The notes under the pieces are model-generated. The model searched no databases. It had not been told where the DNA came from and saw only the letters and a program-made list of their open reading frames with translations. A stretch of DNA of 64,000 nt, taken from the NCBI GenBank assembly GCA_036489885.1, contig DASXEW010000003.1:62001-126000 (forward strand), in the 5' to 3' direction. This document shows positions 33,742 through 61,130 of the stretch, piece after piece (position 1 is the first letter of the stretch; every line of letters begins with the position of its first letter). The DNA is from Candidatus Baltobacteraceae bacterium. Its GTDB lineage: Bacteria > Vulcanimicrobiota > Vulcanimicrobiia > Vulcanimicrobiales > Vulcanimicrobiaceae. The position numbers were made by a program, and so were the translations under genes.

Positions 33742-33765
33742 CCCTCGACTTCGCTTGGGATGACA
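33742..33765 (-). repeat. REP-like palindrome, short copy, forms the murJ leader
   Basis: Short member of the dispersed family whose full form begins GTCCCTCGACT and ends GCTACGCTCGGGATGACA. Here the two ends are joined with the central stem missing. It fills the space between the murJ ATG (33739) and the stop of the initiating transferase (33773), so any ribosome binding for murJ must happen on or beside it. Confidence 0.7.
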
Positions 33766-37420: not shown

Positions 37421-38319
37421 TGCGAACGCTTTCGCTCGCCGTCGCCTTCGTGCTGCTCGGCGCTGGGACGCCGGCCCCCTTGTACACGGCGGCACCGACG
37501 GTTGCGCCGGCGACAACCACTCCGAGCGCAGGCTTAGTGCACTTCACTGGCGAGCTGCTCGATGTCCAGCACGACTTCGTGTTCTTTACCAGCGGGGATG
37601 CATTTAGGCTGGCGCCCGGCGCGAAGATCATCAGCTACGACAACGGGCAGCCCGCGACACTGTCCGTGACGACGAAAATGTTCGCGCAAGCGACCTTCGA
37701 TGAAACGGGGAAAGTTGTCGCCCTCGCGCTTTCGAAGCACCGGCTTCCGCCGGAAGCATCCTACGCCGACGTGCACAAGTTCGCTGTCGCGCTATCGCCC
37801 CCGGTGCCGAATCCCGATCTCGATCCCAACAGGCCGCGAGGCAATGGCCCAAATAACAGTCATTTCGCGCTGACGGGGAAAATCGTACAGGTGCGTTTCG
37901 TCGTTCAAGTCCCACCGACGACGCCGATGACCGACGCCGTTTATCTTGCGACGGATGTCAGCGGCTGGAACGCCGAAGCCATTCGCATGGAGCGCTTCGA
38001 TGCGCTGCACTACGCGGTGACCTTGCCGCTGCGCACCGGGACTGAATTCTATTACAAATTCACACGGGGATCATGGCAATCGTCCGAGCGCGGACGCAAT
38101 GGCATCGAGCAGGCACCGCATCATTTCTTCCTCGGTGCGAGCGCACTGGGCGAACCTGATACGCAAGTCCGCGACAATGAAGTCTTTAACTGGTCCGACT
38201 ACAACCCCGCAACCGGTGGACAAGCGATCGTGCCCGGCGCTACGCCGACGCCGTTCAATCCACTGCCGTTCGGTTATCCGACGCCGTTCCCAGTTCGAAC
38301 GCCACCAGGACACCGCTAG
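37417..38319 (+). CDS. Secreted protein with CBM20/48-like starch-binding-type domain
   Basis: 300 residues from ATG at 37417 (or the ATG at 37420), overlapping the barrel gene's stop. Signal peptide LSLAVAFVLLGAG then a Thr/Pro-rich linker. Residues about 40-125 are a beta-rich domain of unknown type. Residues about 165-235 look like a glycogen/starch-binding fold: AVYLATDVSGWNAEAIRM, LHYAVTLPLRTGTEFYYKF and TRGSWQSSERG...GIEQAPH. The tail is Pro-rich. It is probably periplasmic and translated together with the LptD-like protein, which suggests a shared role in glycan handling at the outer membrane. Its stop overlaps the convergent lipoprotein gene by 4 bases. Confidence 0.72.
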   Translation: MMRTLSLAVAFVLLGAGTPAPLYTAAPTVAPATTTPSAGLVHFTGELLDVQHDFVFFTSGDAFRLAPGAKIISYDNGQPATLSVTTKMFAQATFDETGKVVALALSKHRLPPEASYADVHKFAVALSPPVPNPDLDPNRPRGNGPNNSHFALTGKIVQVRFVVQVPPTTPMTDAVYLATDVSGWNAEAIRMERFDALHYAVTLPLRTGTEFYYKFTRGSWQSSERGRNGIEQAPHHFFLGASALGEPDTQVRDNEVFNWSDYNPATGGQAIVPGATPTPFNPLPFGYPTPFPVRTPPGHR

Positions 38320-38927
38320 CGCAGGCTGATCGGAATATCGCGCTCGGTGGTCGGGCCGTTACCGTCGCGCGCGATCACCTGCAGCGTGTAATTGCCTTTC
38401 AAGAAAAATGGCAAGTCCGGAATAACGCCTGACGCCCTGAACAATCCGCTGTGCGCTTTCGGAACCGGCATTGCCCACGAGCTGATGTGAATGTCGACAT
38501 TCGAGACGTTGTCAGTGGTTGTAACGTAACCGCTGACGGTTTCGCCCGATTTGATCTGGAGCGTCGAGAGATGAATCGCGAGGATGCGCGGCTTGCTGTC
38601 GGCTGTCCCTCGACTTCGCGCCTTCGGCGCTACGCTCGGGATGACAGGAGGACGCTCGACGCTCCCTATCACGTGGTACGGCGACACGCTTGGTAGTGGT
38701 ACAGGCATCTCGGAAACCGACTTGCCGGGCGCCGAGCTGCGGATGATATAGACGGGCGCAGTGGAGATCGCCCGCGGAGATGCAGCGGCGGCCTCCGTCG
38801 GCGCGACGGTCGGTGCCGCCGAAGGCGATGATTGTGGCCCCGAAACGGAGGCGGCGTGCGGAAAGCATCCAGCAAGTATCAAGAGGGCGCTCGCGCCAAG
38901 CGCGCGTAGGCAGCGCAGACATGTCAT
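38316..38927 (-). CDS. Lipoprotein with Ala/Pro-rich linker and beta-domain, containing an in-frame REP
   Basis: 203 residues from ATG at 38927. Signal with lipobox ASALLILAGC gives Cys about residue 21; a low-complexity Ala/Pro/Ser linker follows. Residues about 94-108 (PPVIPSVAPKARSRG) are translated from a REP-like palindrome. The C-terminal domain (PRILAIHLSTLQIKSGETV through DGNGPTTERDIPISL) is paralogous to that of the secreted protein at 43702-44256: same P-I-I start, central NV.N, PKA..G.F, K..Y and terminal IPI.L. Fold is probably an Ig-like beta sandwich; function unknown. Its start codon overlaps the start of the divergent GT2 gene. Confidence 0.72.
   Translation of the reverse strand: MTCLRCLRALGASALLILAGCFPHAASVSGPQSSPSAAPTVAPTEAAAASPRAISTAPVYIIRSSAPGKSVSEMPVPLPSVSPYHVIGSVERPPVIPSVAPKARSRGTADSKPRILAIHLSTLQIKSGETVSGYVTTTDNVSNVDIHISSWAMPVPKAHSGLFRASGVIPDLPFFLKGNYTLQVIARDGNGPTTERDIPISLR
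38605..38647 (+). repeat. REP-like palindrome inside the lipoprotein coding region
   Basis: Full-length copy: begins GTCCCTCGACTTCGC, has the central stem GCGCC-TTC-GGCGC and ends GCTACGCTCGGGATGACA. It lies within the - strand lipoprotein gene and is read in frame as residues of its linker. Confidence 0.8.
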
Positions 38928-39907
38928 CGGAGCTGATCTCGGTCGTCGTCCCGCTTTACAACGAAGAGGGGAACGTCGACGAACTGGTGCGGCGCTTGCG
39001 CGCGGTTGTCGCGGCTTTGCCCGGCGAACCACGCTACGAGCTCGTCTTGGTCAACGACGGCTCGCGCGATGCGACGCTTCTCCGCCTTCGCGATCTTGCA
39101 CTCACCCACCATGAGATCGTTGTCGTCAACCTGTCGCGAAATTTTGGCCACCAGATCGCGGCAACGGCAGGCATCGACACGGCGCGCGGCAATGCGATCG
39201 TTCTGATGGACGGCGATCTCCAAGATCCGCCGGAGCTGATCGGGGCATTCTTGGAGCGCTGGCGCGAAGGCTACGACGTCGTCTATGCGGTGCGACGTTC
39301 GCGCAAGGGCGAAGGAACGTTCAAGCTCGTGACCGCTCGCGCGTTCTATCGCATCGTTCGACGCTTGACGAACGTCGCGATTCCCCTCGACACCGGCGAT
39401 TTTCGTTTGATGAGCCGGCGAGTGGTGGACGCGCTGAAGATGACGCGCGAGCGGCATCGGTTTCTGCGCGGCCTCGTGAGCTGGGTCGGATATCCGCAAA
39501 TCGGCGTCGAGTACGATCGCGACGAGCGTTTTTCCGGAACGACTAAATATCCGCTCACAAAGATGATGCGGTTTGCAATCGACGGGATTACGAGCTTCAG
39601 CGAAATTCCGCTGCGATTTTCTTCCTATCTTGGATTCACCGTTTCGATCGTTGCGTTCATCGTCGCGATCATTGAGATCCTTATCAAACTCTTCACCGGA
39701 TACAATCTCCCCGGTTACACCTCGACGATCTTCGCAATCCTTTTTCTCGGGGGCGTCCAACTGATTGCAATCGGGACGCTTGGTGAGTATATCGGGCGAA
39801 TCTACGAACAAGTAAAAGGCCGTCCGCTCTATTTGATCGCCGACGTCATTCGCGAAGGTGAGCTCGAGGTTACCGACCCAATGGTCAGCGTTCGAGAATC
39901 AGGCTGA
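38921..39907 (+). CDS. GtrB/DPM1-like polyprenyl-phosphate glycosyltransferase
   Basis: 328 residues from ATG at 38921. GT2 domain with ISVVVPLYNEEGNVDELV, LVLVNDGSRDATLLRL, the DxD-like VLMDGDLQDPPELI and DTGDFRLMSRRVVDAL, followed by two C-terminal membrane helices (LGFTVSIVAFIVAIIEILIK and IFAILFLGGVQLIAIGTLGE) and the conserved YIGRIYEQVKGRPLYLI. This is the GtrB/DPM1 layout: it charges undecaprenyl phosphate with a sugar for GT-C enzymes acting outside. The GT-C-like proteins in this window are natural partners. The 3' end overlaps the convergent deoA gene by 79 bases; the 5' end overlaps the divergent lipoprotein start by 7 bases. Confidence 0.93.
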   Translation: MSSELISVVVPLYNEEGNVDELVRRLRAVVAALPGEPRYELVLVNDGSRDATLLRLRDLALTHHEIVVVNLSRNFGHQIAATAGIDTARGNAIVLMDGDLQDPPELIGAFLERWREGYDVVYAVRRSRKGEGTFKLVTARAFYRIVRRLTNVAIPLDTGDFRLMSRRVVDALKMTRERHRFLRGLVSWVGYPQIGVEYDRDERFSGTTKYPLTKMMRFAIDGITSFSEIPLRFSSYLGFTVSIVAFIVAIIEILIKLFTGYNLPGYTSTIFAILFLGGVQLIAIGTLGEYIGRIYEQVKGRPLYLIADVIREGELEVTDPMVSVRESG

Positions 39908-42392: not shown

Positions 42393-42397
42393 CGACG

Positions 42398-42439
42398 GTC
42401 CCTCGACTACGCGCCTTCGGCGCTACGCTCGGGGTGACA
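42398..42439 (+). repeat. REP-like palindrome abutting the GT87-like start codon
   Basis: Full copy beginning GTCCCTCGACTACGC, stem GCGCC-TTC-GGCGC, ending GCTACGCTCGGGGTGACA. It begins 5 bases after the upstream stop codon and ends one base before the next ATG (42440), so it is the whole intergenic spacer. Confidence 0.82.
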
Positions 42440-43705
42440 ATGTTGAGCGTACCGCTCGTCATTGCATTTGGCGCAATTGCATCGCATGTTGTCTTTCCGG
42501 CGTTGCATAAACCCGACGCTGTTCTCTCTCAGCCGGTCGCCGTCGTTACGGCGTGGGGCTGGTCCGGAGTTGCGGCATGGCTGATTTACTTCGCGACCAT
42601 GCTGCTCGCGGGAATCGCCTACGGATTTGCTATCGCGCGCAGCCGCGAAACACCGCTCATCGCGATTCTCGCCGGAAGCGTTCTTGCATGCTGCGCCGCC
42701 CTTGCGTTCCGCTTTATCTTCTCGAGCGACGTCTACGCATATGCAGCCTATGGCGCGTTATCGGCGACACATCACGATCCGTATATCCCCCATACGCTTC
42801 CGCCACTGCAGCTGGTAGACGCCGTATGGACGCACGCAATCGGGTTCGAATGGCCGTCGCTCCCGGCGTTCATCTACGGCCCTGCATTTCTCGCGCTCGT
42901 CCATGTGACCGTCGTCGCGACGCATTTCGATCTTCCGACAACATTGATCGCGTTGCGCGCAATCGAAATCATCGCGTTTGTTGCGGCAGTCGGCGTTGCA
43001 GCTAACGCGGTGCCTGAACGAGGCCGGTTACTGGCAGCGATCATCGGCCTCAATCCCGTCGTGATTTCCACGGTGTCCGACGGGCACAATGATGCGCTGG
43101 TTTTACTCGTGGTCGCAATAGGCGCGCTCATTGCGCTTCGCAAGCCCGAATTTGGCGGCTTTCTTGCGGGAGCATCGATGATGCTCAAAGCGACCGGCGC
43201 CGTCGCGACCATCGCACTCGCGTACGTCCTGCGCGATCGCCGATTCACTCTGTGGGGATGTGCGGCGATCGGGCTCAGCATCGTCGCGCAATTGGTTTCA
43301 ACACAACTCGCCGGTGGCTACCGAACTGCTGCAGCAACCGATTTCGTGGGCACCGGGGAGGCGGCGATTGCGATCGGCATTCGCGGATTGATCGCTCTCG
43401 GACTCGTCGCACGAGCGCTTTACAATGCCGCAAGGGGCGATCGCGCTGCGGCGCTAGCTGCCGCTGCCCTTGCAATCTGGGCGCTTTATCCGCAAGACTA
43501 CCCGTGGTACGGCATGTGGCTGCTCCCCTTGGCAGCGTTCACGCTCGAGCAGCGGGAAGGTCCCGTGCTCGTTCTGCTGACGTTTAGCAGCACGCTGCGT
43601 TACCTCTCAGACGCCTACGGGTTCGCACCGGCGGCTCCGTGGCTCGAGCTCATCGCACTCGTGACCCCGCTTGCCGGCTATTTGAGGGAACCACTACCCA
43701 CGTGA
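42440..43705 (+). CDS. GT-C membrane mannosyltransferase-like protein (GT87/DUF2029 type)
   Basis: 421 residues from ATG at 42440, about 11 hydrophobic segments. The first large loop contains FRFIFSSDVYAYAAYGALSA followed by HHDPYIPHTLPP, matching the Asp-containing loop and following segment of polyprenyl-phosphomannose-dependent alpha-mannosyltransferases (GT87, MptA/PimE relatives). LNPVVISTVSDGHNDALVLL is another hallmark (the GHND motif of this group), as is WALYPQDYPWYGMWLLP near the C-terminus. It would add a sugar from a polyprenyl carrier, for which the GtrB-like enzyme at 38921 is a candidate supplier. GTGA overlap with the next gene. Confidence 0.82.
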   Translation: MLSVPLVIAFGAIASHVVFPALHKPDAVLSQPVAVVTAWGWSGVAAWLIYFATMLLAGIAYGFAIARSRETPLIAILAGSVLACCAALAFRFIFSSDVYAYAAYGALSATHHDPYIPHTLPPLQLVDAVWTHAIGFEWPSLPAFIYGPAFLALVHVTVVATHFDLPTTLIALRAIEIIAFVAAVGVAANAVPERGRLLAAIIGLNPVVISTVSDGHNDALVLLVVAIGALIALRKPEFGGFLAGASMMLKATGAVATIALAYVLRDRRFTLWGCAAIGLSIVAQLVSTQLAGGYRTAAATDFVGTGEAAIAIGIRGLIALGLVARALYNAARGDRAAALAAAALAIWALYPQDYPWYGMWLLPLAAFTLEQREGPVLVLLTFSSTLRYLSDAYGFAPAAPWLELIALVTPLAGYLREPLPT

Positions 43706-44256
43706 TTCTTCGCCTGATCGTCTTGACTATCGGATTCGCGCTGGGTGCTGCCGCGCAGGCGGTCGCGCAATTGGCGACGCCCGCGCCGGAGCCGCAGCCC
43801 GACATCAGCGCGAGCGCCGCGCCGACTGCAACCGCAACTCCGACCGAGACGCCGACCGAGACTCCAAGTGCAACGCCCGCGCCGACAGTATCGCCGTCGC
43901 CGACGGCCACGCCACAAAATCCCTACAAATACATCGTTGAGCCGACGCCCGATCCGAATGCGTCACCCGGCGCACCACAAATCGTGCGCATCGAGATCAT
44001 CGATAAAACGGTGCATATCGGCGGACAATTCGCGTGCCGCATCACGACGTCACCAAACGTCGCGAATCTCGTACTTTCGGTCGAGGGGCACGATATCTCG
44101 ATTCCCAAAGCGCAGGACGGAACGTTTGCGGGTATTCAAGCGATTCCGTCGTTCATTCCACCGTGGTTCTTGAAGACGTATCAGGTCACGTTCAACGCGC
44201 TGACGGCAGACGGGAAAAAAGCGAGCATGACAATTCCGATCACTCTCGCCTATTGA
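43702..44256 (+). CDS. Secreted protein with Thr/Pro linker and beta-domain (paralog of lipoprotein domain)
   Basis: 184 residues from GTG at 43702 overlapping the GT87 stop. Signal peptide LRLIVLTIGFALGAAAQAVAQ; there is no lipobox Cys. Next comes a low-complexity (PT)/(ET)/(SP) stretch of about 45 residues, then a C-terminal domain (PQIVRIEIIDKTVHIGGQF through KKASMTIPITLAY) matching the 38316-38927 lipoprotein's domain position by position. Probably an Ig-like periplasmic domain held away from the membrane by the linker. Function unknown; it ends 2 bases before the convergent methyltransferase. Confidence 0.72.
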   Translation: MILRLIVLTIGFALGAAAQAVAQLATPAPEPQPDISASAAPTATATPTETPTETPSATPAPTVSPSPTATPQNPYKYIVEPTPDPNASPGAPQIVRIEIIDKTVHIGGQFACRITTSPNVANLVLSVEGHDISIPKAQDGTFAGIQAIPSFIPPWFLKTYQVTFNALTADGKKASMTIPITLAY

Positions 44257-45163: not shown

Positions 45164-45440
45164 TCATGCGGCGATGCACGCGAAACCGCCGCGCGACTTG
45201 GCGAATTTTAGCATCCGCTCATCCCGAGTCACCAGCGCCACCGGATCACCGTGGAGCTCGTCGGAAAGTTCCCTAGCGATTCGAGCGATCTCTCCGCTAA
45301 CCGCGATCTCGCGTCGAGACTTCCCAAGCCGAAATCGCGGACAGGCGCAACATTCCGCTTAATGACGTCCGCGTGCGCTCCACATTATCCAGCACCTCCA
45401 GGTACCCGGACTTCCACGGCAGCAAGACGCGGGTACCGTC
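45164..45440 (-). pseudogene. Decayed VapC/PIN-domain toxin
   Basis: No intact reading frame, but two frames together read as a PIN-domain toxin. From 45440 to the TAG inside the region one frame gives GTRVLLPWKSG and LRLSAISAWEVSTRDRG, matching the PIN start (DTHVLLW) and the SAISAWEV block. A second frame down to the TGA at 45164-45166 gives EIARIARELSDELHGDP and LVTRDERMLKFAKSRGG, the later EIA..A..LP..HGDP and LVTRDE blocks. Parts between them, including the ADR.I..A segment, are deleted. The 5' end is cut exactly at a REP element (45438). The partner antitoxin is not seen. This fills most of the 333-bp gap between the methyltransferase and hldD. Confidence 0.6.
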
Positions 45441-45481
45441 CCTCGACTACGCTCCTTCCGGTCGCTACGCTCGGGATGACA
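45438..45481 (-). repeat. REP-like palindrome at the hldD 3' end
   Basis: Copy reading GTCCCTCGACTACGC ... GCTACGCTCGGGATGACA on the + strand, with a degenerate stem (TCCTTCCGGTCG). It overlaps the hldD stop (45465-45467) and supplies its last codons (LVSSRA), and it abuts the VapC relic. Confidence 0.75.
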
Positions 45482-46487
45482 CGAGAGGGCGTGACAAATC
45501 GGCAGGCGGCTCGTCGCCTAGGGCGTGACCCGGGATCAGGTAGCCGCGGACGTAGTCGGCGATCCCGTCCTCGAGCGAGGTGATCGGCCGGTCGTAGCCG
45601 GTGCTGCGGATCTTGTCGATCGAGGCCTGCGTCGCGTACTGATAGCGCCCGCGTAGGACCTCGGGCATCTCGATAAAGCGGATGTCCGGTTTGCGCCCCA
45701 TCGATGTGAAGACGGAGCTGACGAGATCAAGCCACGTCCGCGCAGCGCCCGAGCCTACATTGAATAGTCCGCGCGCACTCGGCGTGTTTGCGAGATGGAC
45801 GGTCATGGCAACCGCGTCTTTGACGTAAATGAAATCGCGCGTTTGTTCCCCGTCCGCAATTTCGGGGCGGTAACTCTTGAAGAGTCCGACCCATCCGTCG
45901 CGCGTGATGCTCTCATAGGCTTTGTGAACGACCGAACGCATCTCGCCCTTGTGATCTTCGTTCGGTCCGTACACGTTGAAATATTTCAGACCGACGATTT
46001 TATCCAGCATCCCGGTACGCGCTGCATAGACATCGAAGATATGCTTTGAAAATCCATACTTGTTGAGCGGCCGCAATTCCGAGGCCGGCAGATCTTCACG
46101 CAGTCCATGCTCGCGGGAACCATACGTTGCGCCGGAGCTTGCATACACGAATCGGCGACCTTTGCCGACCGCCCACTCGGCCAACATCTTCGTATAACCG
46201 AAATTGTTGCGGATTAAGTAACTTGCGTCGCTTTCCGTCGTCGACGAGCAGGCACCAAGATGGAAAACCGTTGAGATTTCGTCAAGTTTGCCTGGTGACT
46301 CGTTGACGATGCGTGCAAGCTCGTCGGCTTCGAGGTAGTCGCGAAAACGGAGCGGAACGAGATGACGCCACTTTTCGCCGGTACCCAATCGATCGGCGAT
46401 CAGGATATCGTCGAAACCTCGCCGGTTAAGCTCCCAAACGAGCGCACTTCCAATGAAGCCCGCGCCGCCGGTAACAAGTATCCGCAT
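45465..46487 (-). CDS. hldD: ADP-L-glycero-D-manno-heptose 6-epimerase
   Basis: 340 residues from ATG at 46487 (an upstream in-frame start adds 9 residues without homology). Makes ADP-L-glycero-D-manno-heptose for the LPS inner core. Motifs: MRILVTGGAGFIGSALVWEL, IADRLGTGEKWRHL, FHLGACSSTTESDASYL (family hallmark), YASSGATYGSREHG, NKYGFSKHIFDVY (Tyr/Lys pair), KYFNVYGPNEDHKGEM and QTRDFIYVKDAV. Supports LPS-like glycolipids in this organism, together with the LptD-like protein. The C-terminal tail is extended by a REP. Divergent from mfd with a 36-base gap. Confidence 0.94.
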   Translation of the reverse strand: MRILVTGGAGFIGSALVWELNRRGFDDILIADRLGTGEKWRHLVPLRFRDYLEADELARIVNESPGKLDEISTVFHLGACSSTTESDASYLIRNNFGYTKMLAEWAVGKGRRFVYASSGATYGSREHGLREDLPASELRPLNKYGFSKHIFDVYAARTGMLDKIVGLKYFNVYGPNEDHKGEMRSVVHKAYESITRDGWVGLFKSYRPEIADGEQTRDFIYVKDAVAMTVHLANTPSARGLFNVGSGAARTWLDLVSSVFTSMGRKPDIRFIEMPEVLRGRYQYATQASIDKIRSTGYDRPITSLEDGIADYVRGYLIPGHALGDEPPADLSRPLVSSRA

Positions 46488-60474: not shown

Positions 60475-60493
60475 TTGTAGCGCGAGCAGCGGG

Positions 60494-60556
60494 CGCGATC
60501 ACCGGGCGCACGTGGGAGATCACCGGGCGCACGTGGCGCGATCACCGGGCGCACGT
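60494..60556 (+). repeat. Left minisatellite: three 21-22 bp units
   Basis: Three copies of GATCACCGGGCGCACGT with unit spacing 21 then 22 bases (ATC at 60498, 60519 and 60541). It is the reverse-complement counterpart of the longer array at 60910-61095. Confidence 0.85.
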
Positions 60557-60598
60557 TCGATTTCCGCTGGCGACTGACTTCGCGCAAAGGGCCGCCTC
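60553..60598 (+). repeat. Inverted repeat, left arm (46 bp)
   Basis: Matches the reverse complement of 60864-60909 at 44 of 46 positions by eye; flanking minisatellite units extend the symmetry about 18 bases outward. Contains TTCGCGCAAAGGGCCGCC. Confidence 0.88.
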
Positions 60599-60628: not shown

Positions 60629-60670
60629 TGTCATCCTGATAGCGCCCGCAGGGCGCGTAGTCGAAGGACC
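60629..60670 (-). repeat. REP-like palindrome, left inner copy
   Basis: Reverse orientation: TGTCATCCTGATAGCGCCC then CAGGGCGCGTAGTCGAAGGAC. Stem GCGCCC-GCA-GGGCGC. Mirrors the copy at 60768-60814. Confidence 0.8.
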
Positions 60671-60767
60671 ATTCCAGTAACGCGGGCAGCGAAACGATGC
60701 ACCAGATCGAGCACGCGATCGTACCCCCAACCTTTAGAGGTCGTTTCGGCGCCGGCAGGATTACCTC

Positions 60768-60814
60768 GGTCCTTCGACTTCGCAACGCTGCGCGTTGCTA
60801 CGCTCAGGATGACA
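60768..60814 (+). repeat. REP-like palindrome, right inner copy
   Basis: GGTCCTTCGACTTCGCAACG then CTGCGCGTTGCTACGCTCAG and GATGACA; stem CAACGC-TGC-GCGTTG. Confidence 0.8.
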
Positions 60815-60820
60815 TATGGC

Positions 60821-60842
60821 GAGCGCTACGCTCAGGATGACA
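60821..60842 (+). repeat. Partial REP (3' half only)
   Basis: GAGCGCTACGCTCAGGATGACA, the right half of the preceding REP repeated seven bases downstream of it. Confidence 0.7.
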
Positions 60843-60863: not shown

Positions 60864-60909
60864 GAGGCGGCCCTTTGCGCGAAATCAGTCGCCAGCGCAA
60901 ATCGAACGT
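60864..60909 (-). repeat. Inverted repeat, right arm (46 bp)
   Basis: Reverse-complement partner of 60553-60598 with two mismatches; 265 bases separate the arms. Confidence 0.88.
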
Positions 60910-61095
60910 GCGCCCGGTAATCGCGCTACCTGTGCCCGGTAATCGCGCTACCTGTGCCCGATAATCGCGCTGGGTGCGCCCCGGTAATCGCGCTACGTGC
61001 GCCCGATAATCGCGCTGGGTGCGCCCGGTAATCGCGCTACGTGCGCCCGGTAATCGCGCTGGTTGCGCCCCGGTAATCGCGCTGGGTGCTCCCGG
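60910..61095 (-). repeat. Right minisatellite: eight 22-23 bp units
   Basis: Unit GTGCGCCCGGTAATCGCGCT with eight TAATCGC cores at 60918, 60940, 60962, 60985, 61007, 61029, 61051 and 61074, then a degenerate ninth. Units alternate partly between CTACGT and CTGGGT at the junction and between CGGTAATC and CGATAATC. The 656-bp interval 60475-61130 holds only these repeats; no credible gene or terminator is seen. Confidence 0.9.
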
Positions 61096-61130
61096 TCTGC
61101 AAGGCTCCGACTGCATTCGCGCGAACCGCG

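Follow-up and report, generated by a model that had tools for sequence, protein, structure and literature searches.

A palindrome that recurs across the genome of a Candidatus Baltobacteraceae bacterium is read in frame inside a predicted lipoprotein gene, which raises the question of how a dispersed repeat came to encode part of a protein. The window, i.e., the whole stretch of 64,000 nucleotides that was analyzed, belongs to a host genome of 3.48 Mb in 4 contigs with a completeness of 95.9%. The best explanation overall, considered highly probable, is that a palindrome of the REP family spread through this genome, with the lipoprotein copy as a tolerated in-frame entry into a linker. The features of the locus are:

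38316 to 38927, minus strand: lipoprotein gene with the translated REP copy, 203 aa, ATG at 38927 (from translation)
38865 to 38927, minus strand: signal peptide with lipobox LILAGC and Cys21 (from sequence and lipobox pattern)
38605 to 38646, plus strand: REP-like palindrome copy of the strict motif, 42 nt (exact motif match; TGTCATCC end read first by the gene)
38607 to 38645, minus strand: REP-encoded residues V95-G107, VIPSVAPKARSRG (from translation; pLDDT about 63-65)
38319 to 38591, minus strand: conserved C-terminal Ig-like beta-sandwich domain, residues 113-203 (from orthologue conservation, AlphaFold, and PDB fold matches)
38921 to 39907, plus strand: divergent glycosyltransferase gene, the synteny anchor (from matches in relatives)

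The lipoprotein gene and the palindrome family

The protein begins with a signal peptide that ends in LILAGC, followed by a stretch rich in Ala, Pro, and Ser, then by VIPSVAPKARSRG and the conserved C-terminal domain; the lipobox motif suggests that the product is processed as a lipoprotein. An ORF start at 39032 was rejected as too far upstream, the signal peptide fitting the ATG at 38927, while the codon model alone placed the gene start at 38687 and scored the linker near zero. In an AlphaFold prediction from 15 sequences, residues 113-203 were mostly beta with pLDDT above 90, and residues 1-110, including the REP block, reached 51-65, which is compatible with, but not proof of, a linker that is probably disordered. 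The C-terminal domain matched PKD, FN3, and Ig folds in the PDB with E-values of 2e-5 to 1e-3, and no Pfam family matched residues 113-203. Homologues of the lipoprotein were found in 50 of the 60 genomes searched, a count that includes the host. The start codons of the lipoprotein and glycosyltransferase genes diverge at 38921-38927 and lie at most 7 nt apart, so that any promoter must sit inside the opposite gene.

The copy at 38605-38646 is an exact match on the plus strand to the strict motif, GTCCYTCGACT-N(8-36)-CGCTCRGGATGACA, and positions 38600-38646 match a second window copy, 42393-42439, at 91%. It is read in frame and without a stop on the minus strand, adjoins the Ig-like domain, and contributes 13 whole residues (V95-G107) plus parts of P94 and T108; the peptide VIPSVAPKARSRG would thus be made as part of the lipoprotein. 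Residues 77-114 gave a 65% match to an array of half units and also align with orthologue sequence, and VIGSVERPP beside the REP block may be a decayed half unit.

Genome-wide, 85 strict copies were found (34 forward and 51 reverse) against 0 for the reversed control pattern, so the palindrome is not a product of chance, and the claim of the sequence-only reading that a copy of a dispersed palindrome lies in frame in the lipoprotein gene was borne out. A search with 141 bases around the lipoprotein copy returned 51 matches. Both arms are conserved and pair imperfectly as an outer stem, while the center forms a second hairpin whose sequence differs between copies (68 distinct centers among the 85), with a mean perfect stem of 5.06 bp compared to 2.96 bp for shuffled letters (highest shuffle 3.19). 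The lipoprotein copy is predicted to fold in this way, with an outer stem and an inner hairpin (RNA -19.8 kcal/mol, z -1.57). One pair of the outer stem covaries, with C-G in 66, T-A in 19, and mixed pairs in 0 of 85 copies, a table that could equally come from two subfamilies by descent. Fold z-scores ranged from -0.78 to -1.57 for RNA and from +0.25 to -1.41 for DNA (four sequences per mode), i.e., single folds improved on shuffles modestly or not at all, which makes the covariation the stronger evidence of pairing. One end of the element carries TGTC. Most predicted folds pair its GTC with GAC at the opposite end, and the AT that follows is bulged; GTAG is internal, beside the inner hairpin, and not terminal. 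All frames but one are often open (in 49 to 69 of the 85 copies, the remaining frame in 2 of 85), and in-frame survival is therefore possible in several frames.

No Rfam family matched the 64-kb window at gathering score. A search of the open-access literature by title and abstract start found no description of the motif or of HPERSE, and one by title found no REP paper on Eremiobacterota and palindromic elements. Tandem arrays of the right half-element (CTACGCTCGGGATGACA plus spacer) follow a full copy at L042 (C3:1383738-1383858), L044, L062, and L065. A degenerate short palindrome (CCCTCGACTTCGCTTGGGATGACAG) that lacks the inner hairpin lies between genes at window 33742-33764.

Copies within and beside genes

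The stretches around all 85 strict copies were fetched, and genes were called with a codon model trained on these stretches. The copies were intergenic in 64 cases, at gene edges in 11, and inside called ORFs in 10. As the coding fraction of the window is 0.91, the probability of 10 or fewer of 85 falling inside is about 3e-68, and genes are thus strongly avoided. Two copies at L044 and one at L113 were discarded as lying in spurious ORFs or behind wrong starts, which left seven of the ten as credible:

38316 to 38927, minus strand: the lipoprotein gene
L107: FAD oxidase (Pfam FAD_binding_4), which we take to be GlcE-like
L053: transglutaminase-like protein (Transglut_core)
L120: SDR enzyme (short-chain dehydrogenase)
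L117: helix-hairpin-helix (HhH) protein, presumably ComEA-like, with a weak total ORF score (8)
L047: CoA-transferase III with a REP-coded tail
L069: secreted-looking protein with no Pfam match

The search for further translated copies that had been proposed from the sequence therefore yielded seven credible genes, the lipoprotein included. The copies are read in frames of the VIPSVA-, CHPERSE-, and GPSTT-type, and that all of them are in frame is partly so by construction, because frame-shifting copies end or split genes and are scored as edge or intergenic. The REP-coded stretch fell into a negative coding-score bin in six of the seven genes, the exception being L047 with +0.7. In the five genes compared with homologues (all but L069 and L047), the element lies in a variable linker or loop. 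For the FAD oxidase, the loop at this position is variable and shorter across the ten aligned homologues, with L138 having a longer loop of its own. The single homologue of the transglutaminase-like protein in the same-genus genome G001 is nine residues shorter at the site, and the same-genus homologue of the HhH protein (L272) has a shorter linker, among twelve of 36 non-self homologues listed. The SDR enzyme shows a variable Pro/Ala linker at the site in ten aligned of 20 non-self homologues, so length does not decide there. Among the 20 strict copies of G001, one is contained in a gene of 345 aa (L255), two at gene ends (L248 and L251) give C-terminal tails, and the rest are intergenic, which means that the pattern extends beyond a single genome.

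Nine genes, all on the strand opposite the element, end within a copy, whose arm gives the last residues, often LSSRA or VSSRA, and the stop codon. Two further edge copies touch start codons. Where both neighbors were called, 28 of 62 intergenic copies lie no more than 20 nt after a stop codon, and the TGTCATCC end faces the stop in 27 of the 34 copies this near to one. Further copies in the window are:

45438 to 45481, plus strand: REP copy supplying VSSRA and the stop codon of the gene at 45465-46487, minus strand
42398 to 42438, plus strand: second REP copy, filling the gap from the stop of one gene (42392) to the start of the next on the same strand (42440)
60769 to 60841, plus strand: REP copy with a half unit after it, in an outward pair with a degenerate partner near 60629 (spacer about 100 nt)

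Opposite-strand neighbors within 250 nt were oriented outward in 13 of 13 cases, and two more pairs were on the same strand. Outward pairs separated by about 100 nt occur at window 60629-60814, C1:209538, C1:434620, C3:49406, C3:51227, C3:1396874, and other places. In seven aligned spacers, the motifs AACGAT, GATCGTGC, and ATCGTTGCGC are shared at intervals, and the outward pair could represent a composite element (about 190 nt) or an RNA. On both sides of the REP pair, at window 60481-60566 and 60906-61105, lie arrays in opposite orientation of a GGTAATCGCGCTACGTGCGCCC-like unit that is about 22 nt long.

Gain of the lipoprotein copy

It had been proposed from the sequence that the REP entered the lipoprotein gene late and without breaking it, on the grounds that a paralogue at 43702-44256 has a different linker. 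The paralogue is real; at 30% identity and E 3e-4 it is remote, which makes its linker weak evidence and the syntenic orthologues the proper test. The lipoprotein adjoins the same divergent glycosyltransferase in the host and in many relatives, most orthologues included. Glycosyltransferase matches at E <= 1e-40 were found in 35 of 40 relatives, and the best named matches, mostly Candidatus Eremiobacterota MAGs, shared 67-69% identity, on which basis the host is assigned to that phylum.

The orthologue set of 39 unique ORFs, including the one studied here, was merged from 23 ORFs, after two spurious hits, L083 and L084 (E 6.3 and 4.7), were dropped, and from 24 of 30 loci. No lipoprotein hit was obtained at 7 of 30 glycosyltransferase loci in one set and at 6 of 30 in the other. 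Eight REP peptide words chosen by the authors were searched for, and they occurred in this protein and in 0 of the 38 other unique orthologues. With two changes at most allowed, half-arms of the REP were present at 11 of 61 orthologue loci. They are placed downstream of the glycosyltransferase gene, in other positions, or shortly ahead of the lipoprotein start, and at none of the 11 loci in the linker. On these sequence comparisons, the copy is a lineage-specific gain, as the peptide is absent from 38 orthologues, and the proposed later entry without gene breakage is supported; the case that would have spoken against it, that all orthologues carry the same sequence, does not hold. Half-arms just before the lipoprotein start were seen at L174 and, at one shared place, at L182-L185 and L191.

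The copy probably arrived by insertion. A rather unlikely alternative is that recombination or template switching copied the REP into the low-complexity linker and overwrote residues already there. The protein, with 203 aa, is not longer than eight orthologues of 192-223 aa, linkers vary freely, and the usual junction PxDAPPxI (most of the other orthologues have a form such as PPDAAPQI) reads GTADSKPRI here, as if overwritten. However, in the two same-genus comparisons for other REP-bearing genes, the REP carriers are longer, with a net gain of nine residues in the transglutaminase-like protein and a longer linker in the ComEA-like protein. For the lipoprotein itself, insertion is inseparable from linker replacement, since the only same-genus orthologue (in G001) is truncated at a contig end 62 residues from its C terminus and identity falls to 30-40% in the next relatives. 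The earlier statement that the REP adds about 14 residues is likely to hold, while the length of the protein does not show a net gain.

A false join inside the lipoprotein gene, caused by a repeat of 85 copies in an assembly that is not closed (4 contigs), is extremely improbable. Both flanks of the copy belong to one syntenic gene with its frame kept, the conserved domain on one side and the glycosyltransferase on the other speaking against a misassembly, and six other genes show the same, as does one gene of G001. It is also very unlikely that the copy was retained for a function, either as an RNA hairpin that slows translation between anchor and domain or as a usefully charged linker. The RNA hairpin is moderately stable and the outer pair covaries as given above, but covariation is a property of the element in general and not of the lipoprotein copy, the other intragenic copies are read in other frames as unrelated peptides, and 0 of 38 orthologues carry a copy.

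The spread of a REP-family palindrome remains the preferred reading. A mobile or formerly mobile palindrome would have spread through this Eremiobacterota genome, and gene-breaking copies would have been purged by selection. The survivors would be intergenic, mostly near the 3' ends of genes, with a few intragenic copies tolerated as in-frame peptides of about 14-18 residues. In the lipoprotein, the copy would have entered the Ala/Pro linker, probably a disordered one, that connects lipid anchor and Ig-like domain, where its peptide is presumably neutral for function.

Relatives, known palindromes, and spread

The strict motif was matched in 14 of 60 genomes, the host included, and in most others not at all. 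The REP-rich genomes were the host with 85 strict copies, G002 with 53, G021 with 35, and G001 with 20. Y1_Tnp, the RAYT domain, was detected in 15 of 60 genomes and in five of 14 control genomes; it was absent from the host, G001, G002, and G021, although a gene may have been missed in the host at its 95.9% completeness. Among the family members searched, G020 and G027 have Y1_Tnp and 0 strict copies, and the REP-rich host (G000), G001, G002, and G021 show the opposite. A RAYT was rejected as the mover on these two grounds. As no Y1 transposase was found, it is the dispersal of the copies that points to mobility.

According to PMC3733652, most REPs are intergenic and follow the 3' ends of genes closely, at distances within 20 bp; their own ends often supply stop codons, and in several species REPs lie inside genes, some in frame. 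The present element shares with the CGTC and GTAG REPs of that account the intergenic position near gene 3' ends, the occasional in-frame copy, and the supplied stop codon. CGTC elements are described there as lacking a dedicated transposase and as forming predominantly outward (HH) dimers, like the 13 of 13 pairs found here. They carry an unpaired CGTC, TGTC, or CCTC tag at one end and a stem of 8-9 bp that starts with a paired AT and closes on a loop of 4-5 nt, whereas in the present element the TGTC end is paired in most predicted folds, the AT is bulged, and the center is a variable hairpin. The RAYT-associated GTAG REPs of enterobacteria and pseudomonads are alike in size, copy pairing, and gene-end position. 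However, they have a terminal unpaired GTAG and a RAYT gene flanked by the repeat, while here GTAG is internal and the genome has no Y1_Tnp match. The element is not assigned to the GTAG or CGTC families, because the unpaired terminal tag, the simple short loop, and the RAYT were not found.

The sequence-only reading had likened the copy to the palindromes of Rickettsia (RPE), and the translated copies in other frames and other genes, here and in G001, extend this likeness. In PMC2229807, RPEs are reported in 19 reading frames, along with an active guanylate kinase that carries one, and like the present element they are tolerated in frame in many unrelated protein genes. The behavior that marks the RPE kind, one palindrome read in frame by several conserved genes that are unrelated, was seen here in seven credible genes and in one gene of G001. 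The RPEs (Ogata et al.) measure 105-146 bp and differ in sequence (PMC2229807, PMC3733652), compared to 42 nt for the lipoprotein copy; RPE-4 and RPE-6 of Rickettsia conorii are classed as short CGTC REPs in PMC3733652. Intragenic and stop-supplying REPs, like RPEs, are thus already published, and what is new is a REP family in Eremiobacterota.

A broader reading, put forward as speculation and considered unlikely, is that of a REP family spread by some route other than a Y1 transposase. Its arms would be open to reading in the majority of frames, and it would repeatedly have given internal linkers and C-termini to proteins in the genus. The outward pairs, with their partly conserved spacer of about 100 nt (seven aligned), might then be the true mobile or transcribed unit and the single copies its remnants. 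With the Y1 transposase absent from the REP-rich relatives, what moves repeats of this sort becomes a question again. The range of translated palindromes, known chiefly from Rickettsia and some proteobacteria, now extends to a little-studied phylum, and several independent cases in different frames of one genome make the rule that they are tolerated only in linkers, loops, and tails testable.
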